From Actinomycetospora sp. (GTDB taxonomy: Bacteria; Actinomycetota; Actinomycetes; Mycobacteriales; Pseudonocardiaceae), in NCBI GenBank assembly GCA_029266415.1, contig JAQSWW010000026.1, forward strand, positions 1-42,731: DNA of 42,731 nucleotides. The letters are read 5' to 3'. A program made the position numbers and the translations under genes. Below are positions 10,465 to 27,657 of the stretch, piece after piece; positions within the stretch are counted from its first letter, which is position 1; the number at the start of each line of letters is the position of its first letter. A model generated the notes under the pieces. That model ran no database searches and had not been told where the DNA came from. It saw nothing but the letters and a program-made list of their open reading frames with translations.

Positions 10465-10803
10465 TCACTCGGCGGCGGCCAGCTCCCGGTCGCCCGCGCG
10501 TACCGAGTCGTCCACGTAGACGACGCCGTCGGAGACGTTCACCTGGTGGGTGCGCACCGCCTTCTTGGCCGGCGGGCCGCTCGGGCGGCCGGTGCGCAGG
10601 TCGAAGCACGCGGCGTGCAGCGGGCACTCGACCGCGCACCCCTCGAGCCAGCCGTCGGACAGCGACGCGTCCTGGTGGGTGCACGTGTCGTCGATGGCGT
10701 AGAGCTCACCGTCCACGTTGAAGACCGCGATGGCCGCCACCGAACCCTGGACCCGGACCGATTCCCCGACGGGGATGTCAGCGATCTCGCCCACGTAGAT
10801 CAT
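10465..10803 (-). CDS. Rieske [2Fe-2S] ferredoxin (non-haem oxygenase electron carrier)
   Basis: CTHQDASLSDGWLEGCAVECPLHAACFDLRTG (CxH...CxxH); 112 aa. Confidence 0.9.
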   Translation of the reverse strand: MIYVGEIADIPVGESVRVQGSVAAIAVFNVDGELYAIDDTCTHQDASLSDGWLEGCAVECPLHAACFDLRTGRPSGPPAKKAVRTHQVNVSDGVVYVDDSVRAGDRELAAAE

Positions 10804-10812
10804 TCTTGCTCC

Positions 10813-10850
10813 TGTTGCGCTCTGCGCATCGAGTCTTGCTATCCGCAACA
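10813..10850. promoter_or_regulatory. Operator-like element A (35-bp core, probable IclR-family site)
   Basis: TTGCGCTCTGCGCATCGAGTCTTGCTATCCGCAAC at 10815-10849; same length and ends as elements B and C. Confidence 0.6.
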
Positions 10851-10930
10851 CTAATCGTGAGGCTCGGAGATCGTGCCGTCAAGACGAAAGGCCGACATCA
10901 GGGGTTGACTCGTTCCAGCAGCGGAGTGTT

Positions 10931-10940
10931 ACTGATACAT
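10931..10940. promoter_or_regulatory. Candidate GntR-type motif (reverse complement ATGTATCAGT)
   Basis: actgatacat; 9/10 match to the motif upstream of sdaA and glyA. Confidence 0.35.
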
Positions 10941-10981
10941 GTCTAATATTTCATTCGTGTGCAGCAGTTTGAGGTGACGAG

Positions 10982-12400
10982 GTGCCGGGACGTCGCAGTG
11001 GCGGTGCGCGGGCGATCGAGGGTGAGCACACCCTGCGCCGGGCGACGGCCGCGGCGGCCATCGGCAACGTCGCCGAGTGGTACGACTTCGGGATCTACTC
11101 CTACCTGGCCGGAGCGGTCCTGAGCCGGGTGTTCTTCCCCGACGCCGGGCCGTGGGCCACCGTCTACACGCTCGGCGCCTTCGCCGCGGCGTTCCTCGTG
11201 CGCCCGCTGGGCGGCCTGTTCTTCGGCCCGCTCGGCGACCGCGTCGGCCGCACCCGGGTGCTCTCGGCGACGGTGCTGCTCATGGCAACGGCGACCGTGC
11301 TGCTCGGGCTGATCCCGGACCACGGCGCGATCGGCGGCGCCGCCCCGGTCCTGGTGCTGGTCATGCGCCTGCTGCAGGGCTTCTCCGCCGGCGGGGAGTA
11401 CACCGGCGCCCTGACCCTCATCGCGGAGTACGCGCCGGACCGGCGCCGAGGGCTGTTCGGGAGCTGGCTGGAGTTCGGCACGCTCACCGGCTACACCCTG
11501 GGCGCGGCCGTCAGCGCCGCGGTCATCGGCCTGCTGTCCGACGAGGCCCTCCTGGCCTGGGGCTGGCGGCTGCCGTTCATGCTCGCGCTGCCCCTGGGCG
11601 TCGCCGGCATCTACCTGCGCCTGCGCCTCGAGGACACCCCCGCGTTCCGCCAGCTCATGGAGCGCTCCCCCGCCCTGGCCACCATGCCGCTGCGGCGGGC
11701 GCTCCACATCCTCGGGGTCCGCCACCGACGCGCGCTGGTGGTCGCGGGCGGTCTCGTCGTCACCTGGAACATCACCAACTACGTGCTGACCAACTACGTG
11801 CCGACCTACCTCACCAGCACGCTCGCCGAGCACGGCGGGACCGGCACCGGGGAGACGACGTCGACGCTGCTGCAGGTCGTCGTGATGGTGGCGATGCTGT
11901 GCGTCATCACCTCGCTCGGGCGGCTGTCCGACCGCGTCGGGCGCCGGCCGATCCTGTTCGCCGGGAGCCTCTCGCTCGTCGTCCTCGGGCTGCCCGCGGT
12001 CTGGCTCCTGCGCCAGGGCGTCCTCGGCCAGCTCGCAGGCCTCGCCCTCCTGGGCGCGTGCCTGGTGTGCTTCGCCGCGGTGGCCCCGTCGACGCTGCCG
12101 GCGATGTTCCCCACGCTCGTGCGCTACGGGGGGCTCGCCCTCACCGTCAACGTCTCGATCTCGCTGTTCGCCGGCACCGCGCCGACCGTCATCGCCGCGG
12201 CGACGACCGCGACCGGGGACCTCGACTGGCCGGGCTACTACCTCGTCGCCGCCGGCGTGGTCGGGCTGGTCAGCGTCCTGTTCCTGACCGAGTCCGCGGG
12301 CCGCCCCCTGGCCGGCGCCGCGCCCCTGACCTCGAGCGCCGACCTCCCGCCCCCGGTCCTGTCGCCCGACGGGGTCCCCCTGGAGCGGCCGGGCGCGTGA
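10982..12400 (+). CDS. MHS-type MFS transporter (ProP/KgtP-like)
   Basis: GNVAEWYDFGIYSYLAGAVLSRVFF...FLVRPLGGLFFGPLGDRVGRTRVL; about 12 hydrophobic segments. Confidence 0.9.
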   Translation: MPGRRSGGARAIEGEHTLRRATAAAAIGNVAEWYDFGIYSYLAGAVLSRVFFPDAGPWATVYTLGAFAAAFLVRPLGGLFFGPLGDRVGRTRVLSATVLLMATATVLLGLIPDHGAIGGAAPVLVLVMRLLQGFSAGGEYTGALTLIAEYAPDRRRGLFGSWLEFGTLTGYTLGAAVSAAVIGLLSDEALLAWGWRLPFMLALPLGVAGIYLRLRLEDTPAFRQLMERSPALATMPLRRALHILGVRHRRALVVAGGLVVTWNITNYVLTNYVPTYLTSTLAEHGGTGTGETTSTLLQVVVMVAMLCVITSLGRLSDRVGRRPILFAGSLSLVVLGLPAVWLLRQGVLGQLAGLALLGACLVCFAAVAPSTLPAMFPTLVRYGGLALTVNVSISLFAGTAPTVIAAATTATGDLDWPGYYLVAAGVVGLVSVLFLTESAGRPLAGAAPLTSSADLPPPVLSPDGVPLERPGA

Positions 12401-12412
12401 CGGCGGCGGCGC

Positions 12413-13606
12413 TCAGGCGGCCGCGGCCGGGCGCCGGAGCTCGCTGCGGCGGAACCGGCCGAAGGCCCGCGGGTCACCCATCGCGAAGACGCCGGTGGTC
12501 GTGCCCTCGCCGTCGAGGTAGCGCGCGACGAACCGCCCGTCGCCCACCTCGCCGTCGACGATCTCGACCCGGTCGTGCGCCGACGGGTGCCCGGCGAGCT
12601 GCAGCATCCGCCCGTACTGCTCGGACCAGACGTAGCCGCTGGGGCGGAAGGTCGCCCCCGGCCCGCCCGCGAGCAGGTTGGCCGCCGCGACCTCGGCCTG
12701 CTCCCCCGCGCTGGTCCAGTGCTCGTGACGGCGGGCGCCCGCCCCGCGCGACCAGCGGGCGACGTCGCCGACCGCCACGACGTTGGGCAGGTCGGTGACC
12801 ATGCCGGCGTCGGTGCGCACACCGTTGTCGACGGTCAGCCCGGACCCGTCGAGCCAGCCGGTGTTCGGGACGATGCCGATGCCCACGATCACCACGTCGG
12901 CCGCGACGGTGGTGCCGTCACCGAGCTCCACGCCGGCGACGCGGCGCCCGCCGTCGCGCGAGGGCACCGTCGCGAGCCCGGACACGCTGGTGCCCGGCCG
13001 CAGCTCGGTGCCGTGGACGGCGTGCAGGTCGACGCAGCTGCGCGCGATCCGTGGGCCCAGGACGGGGGCCAGGGGCAGCGGGAGCCCGTCGAGCACGGTG
13101 ACCGTCAGGCCCATCGCGCGACAGGTGGACGCCACCTCGGCGCCGATGAAGCCGCCGCCCACGATCACGACGCGCGGCGAGCCGTCCCGCAGGTCACGCC
13201 GCAACGCGACCGCGTCGTCGAGCGTCCGCAGGGTGTGCACGCCCTCGACGCCCTCGGTACCCGGCAGCCGCCGGGCCCGCCCGCCCGTGGCGACGACGAC
13301 CCCGTCCGTGGCGATCTCGGTGCCGTCCGCGAGCACGACGCGGCGTCCGGCGGGGTCCAGGCGCGACGCGGTGGCGCCGAGGCGCAGCTCGAGGGCGAGC
13401 TCCGCCTCGTCGTCGTCGTCCACCAGGCCGATCGCGTCCTCGTCGACGCTCCCGGCGAGGAACGCCTTCGACAGCGGCGGGCGGTCGTAGGGCCGGTGCG
13501 CCTCGTCGCCGACCAGGACCAGCCGGCCCCCGAAGCCGGCCCGGCGCAGCGCCTCGGCGGAGCGGATCCCGGCGACGGACCCGCCGACGACGGTGATGGT
13601 CTTCAT
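12413..13606 (-). CDS. NAD(P)/FAD-dependent ferredoxin reductase
   Basis: ITVVGGSVAGIRSAEALRRAGFGG, YDRPPLSKAFL, VVIVGGGFIGAEVAS, NVVAVGDVARW. Confidence 0.9.
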   Translation of the reverse strand: MKTITVVGGSVAGIRSAEALRRAGFGGRLVLVGDEAHRPYDRPPLSKAFLAGSVDEDAIGLVDDDDEAELALELRLGATASRLDPAGRRVVLADGTEIATDGVVVATGGRARRLPGTEGVEGVHTLRTLDDAVALRRDLRDGSPRVVIVGGGFIGAEVASTCRAMGLTVTVLDGLPLPLAPVLGPRIARSCVDLHAVHGTELRPGTSVSGLATVPSRDGGRRVAGVELGDGTTVAADVVIVGIGIVPNTGWLDGSGLTVDNGVRTDAGMVTDLPNVVAVGDVARWSRGAGARRHEHWTSAGEQAEVAAANLLAGGPGATFRPSGYVWSEQYGRMLQLAGHPSAHDRVEIVDGEVGDGRFVARYLDGEGTTTGVFAMGDPRAFGRFRRSELRRPAAAA

Positions 13607-13670
13607 GCGGTCTCCTCGTGAGCCTCTGCGGGCGGGACCGGTGGAGACGACACCCCGGGGTCTGGAGTGA

Positions 13671-13711
13671 CGAGTTGCGCTTGAGGAAACAAGATGCTCA
13701 ATACGCAACAC
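13671..13711. promoter_or_regulatory. Operator-like element B (35-bp core)
   Basis: TTGCGCTTGAGGAAACAAGATGCTCAATACGCAAC at 13675-13709. Confidence 0.6.
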
Positions 13712-13830
13712 GAGACCGTCCGCGAGCGGGGGCCTGCTTGTCAAGAGGGGATCCAGGTGGTCCGGGGCGCGAGGGTGACGACGTCGTGTCCCGGGGACCC
13801 TTGACACGCGGCTTCCGCTCCCGGACCGTC

Positions 13831-13872
13831 CTTGTTGCGCAGTACGAATCGAGTTTTGTAAAGCGCAACAAG
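13831..13872. promoter_or_regulatory. Operator-like element C (35-bp core, 10-bp perfect arms)
   Basis: CTTGTTGCGC (13831-13840) and GCGCAACAAG (13863-13872) are perfect inverted arms; core 13835-13869. Confidence 0.65.
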
Positions 13873-13909: not shown

Positions 13910-15055
13910 ATGACCACCGGAGAGATCGCACCGGCGGCCGCGGCGCCGGGGCTGCCGCCGAGCCTGCGCACGACGCTCCCGGGCCGGTACTACACGGACC
14001 CGACGATCTTCGCCGCTGAGCAGGCCTTCGTCTTCGAGACCGGCTGGTTCTGCGCCGTGCTCGCCGCGGACATCCCGTCACCCGGCGCCTTCGAGACCGT
14101 CCAGGTCGGCCGGGAGAGCGTCATCGTCGCCCGCGGGCGCGACGGCGCGGTCAACGCCTACCTCAACGTCTGCCGCCACCGCGGGGCGCGGATCTGCACC
14201 GAGGACAAGGGCGCCGTGCGCCGCTCGTTCCAGTGCCCGTACCACGCCTGGACCTACGGGCTCGACGGCAAGCTGATCGCCGCACCGAACATCGGCGAGA
14301 TGCCGGACGTCGACCGGGTCGAGTACGGCCTGCACCGCGTGCACGTGCGGGAGTGGCTGGGCTACGTGTGGCTGTGCCTGGCCGACGAGCCGCCGTCGTT
14401 CGAGGCCACGGTGATCGGCGACGTCGGCGCCCGCCTGGGCTCGCCGGACGCCATCGTCGGTTACCAGGTGGCCGACCTGGAGCTGGGCCGGCGCATCGAG
14501 TACGACGTGGCGGCGAACTGGAAGCAGATCGTCGAGAACTTCATGGAGTGCTACCACTGCGCGACGATCCACCCCGAGCTCACCGAGGTGCTGCCGGAGT
14601 TCGCCGACGGGCTCGCGGCGCAGTACTTCGTGGGGCACGGCGCCGCGTTCGGCGAGGACGTCGAGGGGTTCACCGTCGACGGGTCCGCGGGCCTCGAGCG
14701 CATCCCGGGGGTGGGCGAGGAGCAGGACCGGCGCTACTACGCCATCACGGTCCGGCCCCAGGTCTTCATCAACCTCGTCCCCGACCACGTGGTGTTCCAC
14801 CGCATGTTCCCGCTCTCGGCCTCGCGGACCCTCGTGCGCTGCGACTGGCTCTACCTCCCCGAGGTGGTCGACTCCGGAGCCGACATCGACCGGTCCGTCG
14901 AGCTGTTCCACCGGGTCAACCTGCAGGACTTCGACGCCTGCGAGCGCTGCCAGGTGTCCATGGAGTCGCGCTCCTACGCACGCGGCGGCGTGCTCGTCCC
15001 CAGTGAGCACCACATCGGCGAGTTCCACGACTGGGTCCGGCAGAAGGTCGGCTGA
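13910..15055 (+). CDS. gbcA: Rieske non-haem oxygenase alpha subunit, glycine betaine monooxygenase (GbcA)-like
   Basis: CRHRGARICTEDKG...CPYHAWTYGLDGKL Rieske motif; NWKQIVENFMECYHCATIHPEL mononuclear iron site; genomic context. Confidence 0.8.
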   Translation: MTTGEIAPAAAAPGLPPSLRTTLPGRYYTDPTIFAAEQAFVFETGWFCAVLAADIPSPGAFETVQVGRESVIVARGRDGAVNAYLNVCRHRGARICTEDKGAVRRSFQCPYHAWTYGLDGKLIAAPNIGEMPDVDRVEYGLHRVHVREWLGYVWLCLADEPPSFEATVIGDVGARLGSPDAIVGYQVADLELGRRIEYDVAANWKQIVENFMECYHCATIHPELTEVLPEFADGLAAQYFVGHGAAFGEDVEGFTVDGSAGLERIPGVGEEQDRRYYAITVRPQVFINLVPDHVVFHRMFPLSASRTLVRCDWLYLPEVVDSGADIDRSVELFHRVNLQDFDACERCQVSMESRSYARGGVLVPSEHHIGEFHDWVRQKVG

Positions 15056-15102: not shown

Positions 15103-15309
15103 ATGTCCTCCCTCTCCCCCGAGAGCTCGCCCGAGAGCTCCGACCCGTCCGGGACGAACGCGCCCGAGGAGCGGTACCGCGACGCGTTCGGGGTGGCCGA
15201 CGAGCTGGCCGTGCACGGCAGCGACTGCGTCTGCCCGCGGTGCGCCGGGCGCCTGACCGGCCTCCTGGGCGAGCTGTCGCGGGCCATCGAGCGGGACACC
15301 CCTCGGTGA
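15103..15309 (+). CDS. Small hypothetical protein with CxCPRC motif
   Basis: 68-aa ORF MSSLSPESS...GSDCVCPRCAGRLTGLLGELSRAIERDTPR between gbcA-like and iclR genes. Confidence 0.55.
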   Translation: MSSLSPESSPESSDPSGTNAPEERYRDAFGVADELAVHGSDCVCPRCAGRLTGLLGELSRAIERDTPR

Positions 15310-15330: not shown

Positions 15331-16125
15331 ATGCCGGGGACGAAGAAGTCCGACGACACGGCCGAGAGGACCTCCTCGGTCCAGTCGGTCGACCGCGCGA
15401 TCTCGATCCTGGAGCTGGTCGCGGCACGCGGCGAGCTCGGGATCACCGAGATCGCCGAGGAGCTCGACGTCCACAAGTCCACGGCGTTCCGTCTCGTCGC
15501 TGCCCTCCAGAACCGCAACCTCCTCGAGCAGCTCGGCGAGCGCGGGAAGTACACGCTGAGCTTCGCCATCGTGCGGCTCGCCGCCGCCTCCACGGCCCGT
15601 CTCGACGTGGCCCGTCTCGGGCAGCCGATCTGTCAGCGCCTGGCCGAGAGCCTGGGCGAGACCGTCAACATCGCCGTCACCGACGGCGAGGCCGGCATCA
15701 CCGTCGCGCAGGAGGACGGCACCGCCACCATCACCTCGCAGAACTGGGTGGGTCGCCGGACCCCGCTGCACGCCACGGGCGCGGGCAAGGTGCTGCTCGC
15801 GTGGATGGACGAGGAGGAGCGCCGTCCGATCCTGCGCAAGCGGCTCAAGCGGTTCACCGACGACACCATCGTCACCGTCGCCGAGCTGCGCACGGAGCTG
15901 GCGCGGGTCCTCGACGAGGGCCACGCGCGGTCGTTCGAGGAGCTCGAGGTCGGGATGCACGCCGTCGCGGTCCCCGTGTTCTCCGCCGACGGCACCGTCG
16001 GCTCGGCGCTGAGCGCCACCGGCCCGGTGTACCGGCTGCCGCGGCGCCGGGCGCGTGCGGTCGTCGGCGATCTGCGCGAGGGCGCCGCCGAGCTGTCGGC
16101 CAAGCTCGGCTACACGGGCGTCTGA
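15331..16125 (+). CDS. IclR-family transcriptional regulator
   Basis: [41 protein letters not shown] w[19 protein letters not shown] effector domain. Confidence 0.95.
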
Positions 16126-16141: not shown

Positions 16142-16295
16142 TCAGCGGAAGACCACCTGCAGGTGGCCGTCGAGCAGGACCCGCCGCTGGCAGTGCCAGC
16201 GCACCGCCCGCGAGAGGGCCAGCGCCTCGACGTCCCGGCCGACGGTCTGCAGGGCCTCGGGGTCATCGGGAGTGGTCGATGCGCACGACCTCCTG
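16142..16295 (-). pseudogene. purU: Frameshifted 3' remnant of formyltetrahydrofolate deformylase
   Basis: QEVVRIDHS / frameshift at about 16268 / [41 protein letters not shown], matching the PurU C-terminal pattern; begins right after the sdaA stop. Confidence 0.7.
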
Positions 16296-16300
16296 ACTCG

Positions 16301-17680
16301 TCAGCACTCGACGACGGTGAGAGCGAGCCCGCCGCGGGCCGTCTCCTTGTACTTGACCTTCATGTCGGCGCCGGTCTCGCGCATGGTCCGGATCGCCTTG
16401 TCCAGCGAGACGTGGTGGACGCCGTCGCCGCGCACGGCCATGCGGGCCGCGGTGATGGCCTTGACCGAGGCGACGGCGTTGCGCTCGATGCAGGGGATCT
16501 GGACGAGTCCCCCGACGGGGTCGCAGGTCAGGCCCAGGTTGTGCTCGATGCCGATCTCGGCGGCGTTCTCGACCTGCTCGGGCGAGCCGCCGAGGAGCTC
16601 CGCGAGCCCCGCGGCGGCCATCGAGCAGGCCGACCCGACCTCGCCCTGGCAGCCGACCTCCGCGCCCGAGATCGAGGCGTTGCGCTTGAAGAGCAGGCCG
16701 ATCGCGCCGGCGGTGAGCAGGAAGCGCACGACGGCGTCGTCGTCGAACCCGCGCACCGACTGCGCGGCGTGGTGCAGGACCGCGGGCACGATGCCCGCCG
16801 CGCCGTTGGTGGGGGCGGTGACGACCCGGCCGCCGGCGGCGTTCTCCTCGTTGACGGCCAGGGCGTAGAGGGTCACCCGGTCCATGGCCTGCGCGGGGCT
16901 CCCGGCCTCCTCCTCCTCGTCGAGGTGGCGGCGGAGGGCGGCGGCACGGCGGCGGACCCGGAGCCCGCCGGGCAGCACGCCCGGCGTCGTCGAGCCCCGC
17001 TCCACGCACTCGCGCATGACCCACCAGAGGTGCAGCAGGCCGGCGCGGGTCTCCTGCTCGGGGCGCCACACCGCCTCGTTCGCGAGCATGACGTCGCTGA
17101 TGCGGAGCCCGTGGGCCCGGGCGATCGCGACGAGCTCGTCGCCGGAGGGGAAGGGGTGGCGCACCGGCGTCGGGTCCTCGCGGAGGACCGGCTCGCCCGT
17201 CTCGTCCTCGTCGAGGACGAACCCGCCGCCGACCGAGTAGTACTCGCGGCGGTCGACCAGGTCTCCGTGCTCGTCGTGCGCGGTGAACACCATGCCGTTG
17301 CTGTGGAACGACAGCCGCGCCCGGCGGTGGAGCACCACGTCGTCGTCGACCGAGAACGGGACGATGTGCTTGCCGGCCAGCGCGAGCCGCCCGCCGTCCC
17401 GGACGGCGGTGACGATCGGCTCCGCCTCCACGGGGTCGACGAGGTGGGGCTGCTCGCCGCAGAGGCCCAGCACCACCGCTCGCACGCTCCCGTGCCCGTG
17501 CCCGGTGGCGCCGAGCGACCCGAAGAGCTCGCAGCGCACCGACGCGACCCGGTGGAGCAGGTCGGCGTCGTGCAGCCGGGAGACGAACAGGTGGGCGGCG
17601 CGCATCGGACCCACCGTGTGGGAGCTCGACGGTCCGATCCCGACCTTGAACAGGTCGAACACGGAGATGGCCATGGACAC
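16301..17680 (-). CDS. sdaA: L-serine ammonia-lyase
   Basis: [65 protein letters not shown]; likely start at 17680 or 17674. Confidence 0.95.
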
Positions 17681-17769: not shown

Positions 17770-18438
17770 GTGAGCCTTCTTTCGGACGAGCAGGTGTCGA
17801 ATCCCCCGCTGTCGCTCTCCGAGCGCGCCTACGCGGCCATCCAGGACAAGCTGATCATGTTGGAGATCCCGCCGATGGCCCCGATCGACGAGGTCGGCCT
17901 GGTGGAGTCGCTGGGTGTGGGGCGCACGCCCGTACGCGAGGCCCTCAAGCGGCTCGAGGTCGACCGCCTCGTCGTGTCCTACGCACGGCGCGGGACGTTC
18001 GCCACCGCCGTCGACATCTCCGACCTCGCCTACATCTCCGAGATCCGCGTACAGCTCGAGCCGCTGGCGGCCCGCCGGGCGGCCGAGAACGCCGGTCCCG
18101 CGATGCGCGAGGACCTGGCGAAGCTCGCCGACGCCACCGATGCCCTCGAGGTGCCGTCGCTGACGCGCGACGAGCTGATGCGCTGGGACCTGCGGGTGCA
18201 CCGCGCCGTGTACCGGGCCTCGGGCAACCCGCACCTCGAGGACACGCTCGTGCGCTACGACAACCTGGCCACGAGGATCTTCTGCATCTTCCTCGACCGC
18301 ATGACCGACTTCGTCTCCCACGTCGAGGAGCACGCGGGGCTGCTGCGCACGATCGCCGAGGGCGACGCCGACGGGGCCGCGCGGCGCGCGCGCCAGCACG
18401 TGATCGGCTTCGAGAAGGCGATCCGCGCGGTGATCTGA
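17770..18438 (+). CDS. GntR-family regulator (FCD-type)
   Basis: LSERAYAAIQDKLIMLEIPPMAPIDEVGLVESLGVGRTPVREALKRLE; FCD-like C-terminus. Confidence 0.95.
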   Translation: MSLLSDEQVSNPPLSLSERAYAAIQDKLIMLEIPPMAPIDEVGLVESLGVGRTPVREALKRLEVDRLVVSYARRGTFATAVDISDLAYISEIRVQLEPLAARRAAENAGPAMREDLAKLADATDALEVPSLTRDELMRWDLRVHRAVYRASGNPHLEDTLVRYDNLATRIFCIFLDRMTDFVSHVEEHAGLLRTIAEGDADGAARRARQHVIGFEKAIRAVI

Positions 18439-19025: not shown

Positions 19026-22097
<3,072 letters not shown>

Positions 22098-22105
<8 letters not shown>

Positions 22106-24845
22106 CGCGGCGCGCTCCTTCGGGGTCGACGAGGACGGTGTCGCCGATCTGCGCGGCCACCAGCTCGCCGCCGACGGGGACCCCCACGACCTCGCCGATG
22201 CGCTCGCGGCCGCCCTTGACCAGGGCGAGCGCGAACGGCCGGGCGAGGGCCGCGCTGTGGTAGCTGGAGGTGACGTGGCCGAGCATCGGGACCGGCGGGG
22301 CGGGCAGCCGCCCGTCCTCGGCGAGGTGCACGATCTGGGAGCCCTCGGGCAGCCTGGTCGCGGCGTCGACGGGCAGCAGGGAGACGAGCTGCTTGCGCAG
22401 CAGGTCCTGGTTCTGCGGGCGGGCGAAGGAGCGGCGGCCGAGGAAGTCGGGCTTCTTCCTCGACACCGCCCAGCCGAGGCCGAGGTCGTGCGGCGAGACG
22501 GTGCCGTCGGTGTCCTGCCCGATGATCGGGTAGCCCTTCTCGGCCCGGAGGACGTGCATCGTCTCGGTGCCGTACGGCGTGATCCCGTAGGGCCGGCCGG
22601 CCTCGATCAGCCGGTCCCACAGCGCGGGCGCGTACCAGGAGCTGACGGCGACCTCGAAGGCGAGCTCGCCGGAGAACGAGATGCGCGCGAGGCGGACGGG
22701 CACGCCGTCGAGGGCGGTGTCCTGCCAGCTCATGAAGCCGAACGCGTCGTTGCCCACGTCGAGGTCGGCGAAGACCGCGCCGACGACGTCGCGGGAACGG
22801 GGCCCCGCCACCGCGAAGATCGAGAGCTGCTCGGTGACCGAGGTCAGCCGCACCCGCAGGTCCGGCCACTCGGTCTGGAGCCACTCCTCCATCCAGTCGA
22901 GGACGGGCGCGGCGTTGCCGGTCGTGGTGGTGACGAGGAAGCGGTCGTCGGCCAGGCGCAGCACGGTGCCGTCGTCGAAGACCATGCCGTCGTTTCCGCA
23001 CATGACGCCGTAGCGCACGCGCCCGACCTTCAGGCTGCTCATCATGTTCGTGTAGAGCCGGTCGAGCAGGACCGCCGCGTCCGGGCCGCGGACGTCGATC
23101 TTGCCGAGGGTCGAGCCGTCCAGGATCCCGACGCCGGTCCGCACCGCGGCGCACTCGCGCAGCACCGCGGCGGTCATGTCCTCCCCGGGCTGCGGGTAGT
23201 GCCGGGCGCGCTTCCACTGCCCGACGTCCTCGAACTCCGCGCCCGCGGCGACGTGGCGGTCGTGGATCGCCGTCGTCCGCACGGGGTCGTAGAGGTCGCC
23301 GCGCGCCCGGCCGGCCAACGCGGCGAACGCGACGGGCGTGTACGGCGGGCGGAAGGTGGTCGTGCCGAGGTCCTCGATCGGCCGGCCGAGCAGCTCCGCG
23401 GTGATGCCCGAGGCGACGACCCCGGACGTCTTGCCCTGGTCGTGCGCGGTACCGATCGTCGTGTAGCGCTTGACGTGCTCCACCGAGCGCATGCCCGCGC
23501 CCACGGCCCGGGCGATGTCGGCGACGGTGGCGTCGCGCTGGAGGTCGACGAACTGGCGGGCGGGCTCGCCCGCGGTGCGCCAGAGCACCATCGTCGGCTC
23601 CCCGTGCTCCTCCTCCGCGTGCGGCGCGTCCGCGCCGCCGGCCTGGCGCAGGCACCCGGCGAGGTCGAGGGTGCCGTCGGCGGCGCCGACGACCTCGACC
23701 CCCGGCAGCGGCGCCGCGGGCCGGAAGGCGCCGAGCGCGGGGTCCCACCCCAGGCGGCCCCCGACGTGGGTGAACAGGTGCACGGTGGGATTCCAGCCGC
23801 CGCTGACCAGCAGCAGGTCGCAGGGCACCTCGCGGCGCTCCGCCCCCACCAGCGCCGCAGTCACGCGGTCGTCACCCAGCGTCCCGTGGACCTGCGTGTC
23901 CGCGGAGACCTCGATGCCGCGCTCGGCGCACCGCCGGGCCCAGACCTCGGGGACCCGCGCGCGGGCGTCCAGGACCCGGACCGCGGCACCGGCGTCGTGC
24001 AGGTCGACCGCCGCGGAGTACGCGGCGTCGTCGCTGGTGAACACGACGACCTCGCGACCGGCGAGCACGCCGTGGCGGTGCAGGAAGTCGCGCGCCGCCG
24101 AGGCGAGCATGACGCCCGGGCGGTCGTCGTCCTCGAACACGACGGGCCGCTCGATCGCGCCGGCGGCGATGACCACCCGCGCGGCGCGGATGCGGTGGAC
24201 GCGCTGGCGGGACGCGCCCCGCTCGCGGCGCTCCAGGGCCAGGACCAGGCCGTCGTCGTAGTGCCCGAACGCCGTGGTGCGCTGCAGGTGGGTGACACGG
24301 GGGTCCGCCGCCAGCTCGGCGACGACGTCGGCGACGAACTCCCGCGACGGGCGGCCGTCGATGGTCTCGGTGCCGGTGAGCGTGCCGCCGGGCTCGGGGC
24401 GGTCGTCGACGAGGACGACGTCGAGCCCGTCGCGGGCGGCGCGGCGGGCCGCGGTCAGCCCGGCGGGGCCGGCGCCGACGACGAGGACGTCGCAGTGGAC
24501 GTGGCGGTGGTCGTAGCGGGCGACGTCGGCGACGTCGGAGAGCCGGCCCTGCCCGTTCACGCCGCGGGCGACCAGGCCGTCGGTGATCTCGACCGTGGAG
24601 GCGAGCACCATCGGCTCGGGAAACGGCTCCTCGATCTGGACAAGGCCCGTCGGGTCCTCGACCCACGCGGCGCCGATGCCGCGGGGACGCCCGAACTTGA
24701 CGCTGGTGCCCAGCGGGCGGGCGTCGTGGGCGAGCAGCACCGAGGCGAGGGTGTCGCCGGGGTGGCCCGTGTACTCGGTGCCGTCGACGGTGACGGTCAC
24801 CGTGCGGCTGCGGTCGACGCGGCCGTAGCCCTCGATCCTGCTCAC
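22098..24845 (-). CDS. soxA: Sarcosine oxidase alpha subunit
   Basis: SVKFGRPRGIGAAWVEDPTG; CDVLVVGAGPAGLTAARRAARDG; GIGILDGSTLGKIDVRG-type and ISFSGELAFEV GcvT motifs; GTG start. Confidence 0.95.
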
Positions 24846-25117
24846 GGGGTCGCCTCCGATCCGGCGAGGGGGCCGACGCTGACGAACTGGTGGGTGCGGG
24901 TGTCGCGCACCGCGGTGAACCAGCGGCGGCAGCCCGCGCTGTGGGCCCAGCGCTCGGCGAAGGGGCCCTTGGGGTTGTCGCGGAAGAACACGTAGCGGGC
25001 CCACTGCTCGTCGGTCAGCCCCGCGGGATCCGCCGGGTACGCGACGTGCGCCTGGCCGCCGTAGGAGAACTCGAGCTCCTCGCGGGGGCCGCACCAGGGG
25101 CAGGCGATGAGTTGCAC
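24842..25117 (-). CDS. soxD: Sarcosine oxidase delta subunit
   Basis: MQLIACPWCGPREELEFSYGGQAHVAYP; GCRRWFTAVRDTRTHQF. Confidence 0.95.
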   Translation of the reverse strand: MQLIACPWCGPREELEFSYGGQAHVAYPADPAGLTDEQWARYVFFRDNPKGPFAERWAHSAGCRRWFTAVRDTRTHQFVSVGPLAGSEATP

Positions 25118-25129
25118 GGGTGTCTCCGC

Positions 25130-26368
25130 TCAGTGCGCGACGGCGGCGGCGCCGTGCTCGTCGACGAGGGCCCCGGTGACGAACCGGTCGAGCCCGAAGG
25201 GGGCGATGAGGGGGTGCGGGCGGCCGTGGGCGACGGTGTCGGCGAACGCCCAGCCGATGCCCGGGGTGGCCTTGAACCCGCCGGTCCCCCAGCCGCAGTT
25301 GAGGAACACGTTGTCGTAGGGGGTGCGCCCGACGATCGGGCTGGCGTCGGGCGTGACGTCGACGACGCCGGCCCAGCTGCGCAGCAGGTGCGCGCGGGCG
25401 AACACCGGGAAGAGCTCGACGGCGGCCGCCATCTGGCGCTCGATGATGTGGAAGGCGCCGCGCTGGGCGTAGCCGTTGTACGAGTCGACGCCCGCGCCCA
25501 TCACCAGCTCGCCCTTGTGCGCCTGCGAGACGTACACGTGCACGGCGTTGGACATGACGATCGTCGGGTGCACGGGCTCGAGGAGCTCCGAGACGAGCGC
25601 CTGCAGCGGGTGCGACTGCAGGGGCGCGGGGACGCCGAGCATGTCGAGCAGCACCGAGGTGTGGCCCGCGGCGCAGAGGGCGACGGTGCCGCAGCCGATG
25701 TCGCCGCGCGTCGTGCGGACGCCGGTCACGCGGTCGCCGTCGGTGACGAAGCCCGTGACCTCGCAGTCCTGGATGATGTCGATGCCGGCGTCGCTGGCGC
25801 GGCGGGCGAAGCCCCAGGCCACGTAGTCGTGCTTCGCGATCCCCGCCCGCGGCTGGAACGTCGCGCCCTGCACCGGGTACCGGATGTCGGCGGAGACGTT
25901 GACGATCGGGCAGACCTTCGCCACCTCGTCGGGGTCGAGCCACTCGGCGTCGATCCCGTTGAGCTTGTTGGCCTCGACGCGGCGCACCGAGTCGCGGACG
26001 TCCTGCTCGGTGTGGGCGAGGTTGAGCACGCCGCGCTGGCTGAACAGGATCGGGTAGCCGAGGTCCTCCTCGAGCCCCTCCCACAGCCTGAGCGCGTGCT
26101 CGTAGATGCCCGCGGACTCGTCCCACAGGTAGTTCGAGCGGATCAGCGTGGTGTTGCGGGCCATGTTCCCGCCCGCCAGCCAGCCCTTCTCCACGACGGC
26201 GACGTCGGTGATGCCCAGCTTCGCCAGGTAGTGCGCGGTGGCCAGGCCGTGTCCCCCGCCGCCGACGATGACGACGTCGTAGGACCTCTGGGGCTCGGCG
26301 TCGCGCCAGAGGGCGTCGGGGTGCTCGGGCAGCGCGGCGCCCGGCGGTGTGGCGTGTGCGGTCGTCAT
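25130..26368 (-). CDS. soxB: Sarcosine oxidase beta subunit
   Basis: [56 protein letters not shown]. Confidence 0.95.
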
Positions 26369-27657
26369 GCCTGCAGCTCCGGGTAGAGGGGGTGGCGGTC
26401 GGCGAGGGCGGCGACGCGGTCGGCGAGGGCGTCGAGCTCGGCGTCGGTGACGTCCGGGCGCAGCGCGCGGGCGACGACGTCGGCGACGACGCGGAAGTCG
26501 TCGGTGTCGAACCCGCGGGTGGCCAGCGCGGCGGTGCCGATGCGGACCCCGGAGCTGACCATCGGCGGGCGGGGGTCGAACGGGACGGCGTTGCGGTTGA
26601 CCGTGATCCCCACACGGTGCAGGCGGTCCTCGGCCTGCTTCCCGTCGAGCTCGGAGTCGCGCAGGTCGACCAGGACGAGGTGGACGTCGGTGCCGCCGGA
26701 GACCACGCCGATGTCCGGCTCCTCGAGGAGCCGCTCGGCGAGGATGCGGGCGCCGGCGAGCGTGCGCTCCTGGCGCTCACGGAACTCCGGCTGCGCGGCC
26801 AGCCCGAACGCCACGGCCTTCGCGGCGATCACGTGCTCGAGCGGCCCGCCCTGCTGACCGGGGAAGACGCTCGAGTTCAGCTTCTTGGCGAGCTCGCGCG
26901 TGCCCGCGAGGATCACGCCACCGCGCGGGCCACCGAGCGTCTTGTGCGTCGTCGACGTGACCACGTGGGCGTGCGGCACGGGCGAGGGGTGCAGGCCGGC
27001 GGCGACGAGGCCGGCGAAGTGCGCCATGTCGACCATGAGCCAGGCGCCCACCGCGTCGGCGATCCGCCGGAACGCGGCGAAGTCCTGCTGGCGCGGGTAG
27101 GCCGACCAGCCCGCGATGATCAGCTTCGGGTGGTGTGCGTGCGCGAGCCGCTCGACCTCGGCCATGTCGACGCGGTGGTCGTCCTCGCGGACGTGGTAGG
27201 CGGCGACGTCGTAGAGGCGGCCCGAGAAGTTGAGGTGCATGCCGTGCGTGAGGTGGCCGCCGTGGGCCAGCGCGAGGCCGAGGATCGTGTCCCCGGGTGC
27301 GAGCAGGGCGGCCATGACCGCGGCGTTGGCCTGCGCTCCGGAGTGGGGCTGGACGTTGGCGTACTCGGCGCCGAACAGGTCCTTCAGCCGGTCGATCGCG
27401 AGCTGCTCGACGACGTCGACGTGCTCGCAGCCGCCGTAGTACCGCCGCCCCGGGTAGCCCTCGGCGTACTTGTTCGTCAGGACCGAGCCCTGCGCCTCCA
27501 TGACCGCCTGCGGCGCGAAGTTCTCGCTCGCGATCATCTCGAGCGTGCGGTCCTGCCGCCGGAGCTCCGCCACGACCTGGGCGTGGACCTCGGGATCGGT
27601 GTCGGCGAGCGACCGGCCGAGCGCCGCGGCGTGGTCGGGAGCGGTTGTGATCGACAT
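26365..27657 (-). CDS. glyA: Serine hydroxymethyltransferase
   Basis: [59 protein letters not shown] lysine. Confidence 0.97.

Follow-up and report, generated by a model that had tools for sequence, protein, structure and literature searches.

The three 36-bp elements designated A, B and C here are very probably tandem operators of the IclR-family regulator encoded at 15331-16125, which would act on them at +1 to repress a betaine-demethylation regulon. They lie in the window, the 42,731-nucleotide stretch of Actinomycetospora sp. DNA that was analysed as a whole. The model draws on the structure, conservation and position of the operators, on their co-occurrence with IclR and on the gene families of the pathway, and from these features of sequence we infer direct binding, the tetrameric state, repression and the existence of an inducer.

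A sequence-only reading of this DNA had reported the sequences of A, B and C, and all three were found where it had placed them. It had described them as exactly 35 bp long with conserved inverted ends. The inverted ends are real, but each site measures 36 bp once the symmetric outer G/C is counted. The sites are as follows:

10814-10849, minus strand: site A, tandem IclR-type operator; ferredoxin start codon 10 bp downstream; PWM score 32.5
13674-13709, minus strand: site B, tandem operator; reductase start 67 bp downstream; PWM score 41.9
13834-13869, plus strand: site C, tandem operator; oxygenase start 40 bp downstream; PWM score 42.2; outer arms 13831-13872

The 10-bp arms claimed for site C, CTTGTTGCGC and GCGCAACAAG, are present at 13831-13840 and 13863-13872. 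The pattern GTTGCG-N24-CGCAAC matched the window three times (A, B and C) compared to 0.00 expected per shuffled window, and for TTGCGC-N23-CGCAAC the number of matches expected in shuffled windows was 0. When the spacing between GTTGCG and CGCAAC was allowed to vary over 18-30 bp, A, B and C were still the only occurrences in the window (0.07 expected). Besides A, B and C, a PWM scan of the window gave a score of at least 8 only at a shoulder of site A (11.9 at 10795); the maximum over 40 shuffled windows was 7.9. The same scan found no operators before the sdaA, dimethylglycine-oxidase, sox and glyA genes of the window.

The genome-wide motif scan that the sequence-only reading had proposed yielded one further exact copy of GTTGCG-N24-CGCAAC in the organism's own genome (site D, C86:20244-20279). 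This genome amounts to 4.73 Mb, is about 85% complete and was scanned by pattern matching. The statement that the elements lie only at the ferredoxin, reductase and oxygenase promoters is thus true in the window but false in the genome, where site D precedes a GcvT/DMSP-demethylase-like gene. An element scattered without relation to Rieske genes, which had been named as the outcome that would speak against the proposal, was not observed, since site D and the copies in relatives mostly precede betaine-pathway genes.

Judged from its sequence, the unit is more plausibly a tandem operator of 36 bp, composed of two imperfect 17-bp palindromes and a 2-bp gap, than one long palindrome. A second, weaker inverted pair is present in the interior of the sites (CGCAAC at 12-17 and GTTGCG at 20-25), and the ATCGAGTyTTG that had been noticed in both A and C is part of this inner dyad. 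A, B and C have 24 of 36 inner matches, a value that none of 20,000 shuffles of the interiors attained. The inner dyad was also kept in a symmetrised matrix of 118 distinct sites from related loci, which reads GTTGCGYATNRCGCAAC-NN-GTTGCGYNATRCGCAAC; the consensus of the single palindrome in the 118 sites is GTTGCGYATNRCGCAAC. Because the inner CGCAAC/GTTGCG pair is conserved, each site appears to consist of two 17-bp palindromes, and a single palindrome of 35 or 36 bp was rejected on the inner dyad, seen both in the 118 sites and in A, B and C. In A, B and C, as in the relatives, the boxes follow a 17 + 2 + 17 bp arrangement that puts 19 bp between their centres. With one mismatch allowed, half-site pairs in related loci numbered 134 at a spacing of 24 compared to about 5 at most other spacings, the exceptions being 25 (24 matches) and 39 (20 matches); these counts were made on 114 loci, nearly all of them around oxygenase homologues.

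This layout has counterparts among known IclR-family operators. The main text of Suvorova & Gelfand (2021, PMC8222616) describes sites of the GTT-11-AAC type as 17-bp palindromes (GTTYCRYW3RYGRAAC) and reports that tandem palindromes with centres 18-22 bp apart, a distance that fits tetramers, are bound by regulators of 94 groups. As described there, the group-1 tandem sites consist of the same 17-bp palindromes with GTT...AAC ends, have centres 18-22 bp apart (19 here) and, as in our loci, are located mostly <80 bp from gene starts and are common in Actinobacteria (PMC8222616). They differ at position 4, where the sites here have G for Y (GTTGCG compared to GTTYCR; PMC8222616); each window box has 2-4 mismatches to GTTYCRYW3RYGRAAC, partly owing to this change. 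The main text of PMC8222616 names neither this regulog nor its pathway. The same source gives the TphR operator of Comamonas sp. E6, TTTTTGCGCATAGCGCAAAAA, whose 15-bp core TTGCGCATAGCGCAA fits the consensus GTTGCGYATNRCGCAAC, although TphR belongs to terephthalate metabolism in a betaproteobacterium and its operator is listed as a single palindrome. It also cites TtgV as an IclR-family tetrameric repressor whose structure on DNA is available (PDB 2xrn/2xro; Lu et al. 2010, via PMC8222616). The window IclR matched the structure 2xrn/2xro in a PDB sequence search; the operator sequence of TtgV, however, differs from the window operators. TtgV is a regulator of an efflux pump. The E. coli IclR box, TGGAAATNATTTCCA, serves the same protein family but is a different, A/T-rich palindrome, which accounts for the motif having gone unrecognised in the sequence-only reading. 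In a library of papers searched for IclR with betaine or with this motif, no description of this regulator turned up.

The genes around the operators indicate what is regulated:

10465-10803, minus strand: Rieske [2Fe-2S] ferredoxin (Pfam PF00355, 2.4e-18)
10982-12400, plus strand: ProP-like MFS transporter (closest model, with a score below its cut-off, that of the glycine betaine/proline transporter ProP)
12413-13606, minus strand: FAD-dependent ferredoxin reductase (PF07992, 1.4e-55; PF14759)
13910-15055, plus strand: alpha subunit of a Rieske oxygenase (closest NCBIfam model that of the glycine betaine monooxygenase GbcA)
15331-16125, plus strand: IclR-family regulator, predicted binder (PF01614, 1.5e-39; PF09339, 1.5e-14)
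16301-17680, minus strand: L-serine ammonia-lyase SdaA (TIGR00720, 655 bits, above cut-off)
17794-18438: GntR/FCD regulator (domain search)
19026-21494, minus strand: dimethylglycine-oxidase-like protein of 822 aa (FAD oxidase plus GcvT fold)
21491-27657, minus strand: heterotetrameric sarcosine oxidase (soxG, soxA, small ORF, soxB) and glyA (pathway context)

Site A is intergenic, between the ferredoxin gene and the divergent gene for the ProP-like transporter. GbcA (NF058607) was the best NCBIfam match of the oxygenase, but at 220 bits compared to a curated cut-off of 670 the protein was not filed as GbcA. The oxygenase also matches a demethylase structure, 4qup, at 2.5e-50; we take this structure to be stachydrine demethylase. 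The 822-aa dimethylglycine-oxidase-like protein (DMGO) was assigned by its domain layout and reached no equivalog model. Scores for soxB (599 bits) and glyA (596 bits) were above their cut-offs, while soxA scored 1131 bits compared to a cut-off of 1164. With DMGO, sarcosine oxidase, SHMT and serine dehydratase beside the oxygenase, the locus has the composition of a betaine-catabolic cluster, and its gene families resemble those of a betaine-to-glycine-to-serine pathway more than those of aromatic degradation. Aromatic degradation was suggested by the Rieske genes and was rejected on these neighbours and on the targets in relatives, among them genes for choline dehydrogenase, betaine-aldehyde dehydrogenase and BCCT.

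Two smaller features were seen on either side of iclR. A small ORF of 68 residues (15103-15309, plus strand), located between the oxygenase gene and iclR, had no Pfam or NCBIfam match. At 16145-16264 on the minus strand there is a remnant of purU (formyltetrahydrofolate deformylase) comprising only the last ~40 residues. The space separating iclR from sdaA is too short for the rest of purU; in most relatives in the genus a full-length copy of purU occupies this place.

Phylogenetic footprinting, also proposed in the sequence-only reading, was carried out on 136 related loci, where the tandem recurs upstream of Rieske ferredoxin, reductase and oxygenase genes. In related loci it was also found upstream of DMGO-like, glyA, purU and folD genes, and in relatives upstream of genes for choline dehydrogenase (844 bits compared to a cut-off of 732), a betaine-aldehyde-dehydrogenase-like protein, BCCT and S-(hydroxymethyl)mycothiol dehydrogenase. 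Because a simple codon-usage script was used for gene calling in the comparison loci, start codons there are approximate. The operator precedes DMGO-like genes beside unlinked IclR orthologues in relatives. Downstream of site D the order is a DMSP demethylase/GcvT-like gene, an MTHFR-like gene and a second dimethylglycine-oxidase-like gene. The predicted regulon thus extends past the three Rieske genes, and by their annotation its targets together describe choline/betaine demethylation and disposal of the one-carbon units released. The DMSP-demethylase/GcvT-like gene at L151:4700-6190 (G000 contig 86) apparently loses its frame about halfway; its profile match ends at residue ~258 and the remainder is arginine-rich, which points to an error of assembly or to decay of the gene.

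Predicted promoter elements were located upstream of all three sites:

10877-10882, minus strand: predicted -35 TTGACG of the ferredoxin promoter, from the genus alignment; -10-like CACGAT at 10854-10859, 17-bp spacer
13739-13744, minus strand: reductase promoter, predicted -35 TTGACA; -10-like hexamer GACGGT at 13715-13720, 18-bp spacer
13801-13806, plus strand: oxygenase promoter, predicted -35 TTGACA; -10-like hexamer GACCGT at 13824-13829, 17-bp spacer; operator C begins 5 bp beyond it

A near-invariant order was evident in the promoter alignment of the genus: TTGACA or TTGACG, 17-18 bp, a -10-like nACnnT, about 4 bp and then the operator. When all loci were considered, about 151 of the 240 operator-promoter pairs had a TTGAC that started 28-35 bp before the operator, compared to 0 for the reversed TTGAC that served as a control over the same range. 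Because the predicted -35 and -10 sit upstream at a constant offset, the operator covers the predicted transcription start (+1). The divergent reductase and oxygenase promoters are near mirror images of each other (13714-13734 compared to 13810-13830, 81% complementary over 21 bp), and their GACCGTC blocks overlap the predicted -10 regions. A second element, ACTGATAC-N4-CTAATAT, which differs from the IclR operator, occupies 10925-10960 in the gap between the ferredoxin and MFS genes; it is conserved genus-wide, with CTGATAT in relatives, and is perhaps the MFS promoter or a site for another regulator.

The window IclR carries HTH_IclR and IclR_C domains, both above gathering scores, which places it in the family, and its recognition-helix region is near-invariant among IclR homologues, HKST(A/V)(F/S)RL. 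Its gene is probably under the control of site C, because it is on the same strand as the oxygenase gene and downstream of it. The idea that the local IclR is the natural binder gains support from the geometry of the half-sites and tandem, from sites upstream of IclR orthologues and from co-occurrence in genomes. Of 300 relatives, 160 had an IclR orthologue (E <= 1e-50) and 140 had none; the strict motif was present in 104 of the former compared to 10 of the latter, and the odds ratio of 24 (p 2.7e-27) is indicative only, since the counts share ancestry. A reversed-pattern control in the same 300 genomes gave an odds ratio of 2, and outside the genus the motif was present in 87 of 143 genomes with IclR compared to 9 of 139 without. 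The strict pattern was absent from 56 of the 160 IclR-positive genomes, and some loci have weaker sites. In the 19 genomes for which both coordinates were listed, the site was 48-215 bp from the IclR gene. Many loci of Amycolatopsis, Pseudonocardia-type organisms and Nocardiopsis have an operator with no IclR gene within 6 kb; those that were checked have an orthologue elsewhere in the genome, except for the 59%-complete G013.

The other regulator of the cluster, the GntR/FCD protein, is very unlikely to be the binder. It is a neighbour of the operators and was found in 65 of 126 motif-bearing loci, but among the loci collected 31 of the 65 IclR orthologues have an operator in the 300 bp before the start, compared to 0 of 65 GntR neighbours. 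Such a link to the regulator's own gene is also a property of group-1 tandem operators. Given IclR, moreover, GntR adds no association, as the motif is present in 51 of 79 genomes with IclR and no GntR and in 53 of 81 with both, and the double 17-bp dyad is an IclR design; on the own-promoter counts and this lack of added association GntR was rejected. A binder from within the IclR family other than the window protein deserves more weight. On sequence grounds the window IclR is the likely but not exclusive binder of A, B and C, since a 70%-identical paralogue in the same genome (G000:C266:8743-9471) could bind too. This paralogue has the same recognition-helix sequence, HKSTA(F/S)RL, and in G007, G009 and G015 a single IclR (72-74% identical to that of the window) adjoins both operators and dimethylglycine-oxidase-like genes. 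That the paralogue is the main binder, or that the sites are shared by both, is a real but minority prospect, as the window IclR is encoded in the cluster, just downstream of the oxygenase and in the same orientation, and most other genera searched have a single orthologue alongside the motif.

With IclR as the probable binder, the operators might still serve activation, bound IclR helping RNA polymerase, as some members of the family are listed as activators or dual regulators in the introduction of PMC8222616. An operator over the predicted +1 is an improbable site for an activator, and we regard this role as distinctly unlikely; from the same position, repression by bound IclR would be the natural reading. 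There is next to no likelihood that A, B and C reflect chance or a mobile, selfish repeat. A repeat might account for three near-identical copies inside 3 kb, but the genome holds 4 exact copies only, half-sites and spacing are kept while interiors diverge, and the sites are tied to orthologous promoters across many genera. The shuffles, the genome copy number and the spacing preference led to its rejection.

In the repression model, two dimers, or one tetramer, would bind one DNA face of each operator, because the centres are 19 bp, or about two helical turns, apart. Bound IclR would keep transcription of the ferredoxin gene, the reductase gene and the oxygenase-orf-iclR unit from starting until it is released by a metabolite of the pathway, which may be dimethylglycine, glycine betaine or a different betaine. 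The regulon would then cover quaternary-amine (betaine) demethylation and the ensuing metabolism of dimethylglycine, sarcosine, glycine and serine.

By its sequence features the operator set, which recurs across many actinobacteria, is well supported; as gene regulation it is of an ordinary kind. In pseudomonads, GbdR is a regulator of the AraC type. We lean slightly towards the view that the GTTGCG tandem operator marks an undescribed, Actinobacteria-wide IclR regulog, a counterpart of GbdR, in which a single repressor acting on unlinked loci coordinates the route from choline through betaine, dimethylglycine and sarcosine to glycine and C1 units. For a regulator that many actinobacteria possess, the analysis offers an assignment that joins regulator, operator and pathway. 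It also points to the substrate class of the Rieske oxygenase, which is otherwise unassigned, and two copies of GTTGCGYATNRCGCAAC placed 2 bp apart may serve as a motif for annotating betaine/choline catabolism.
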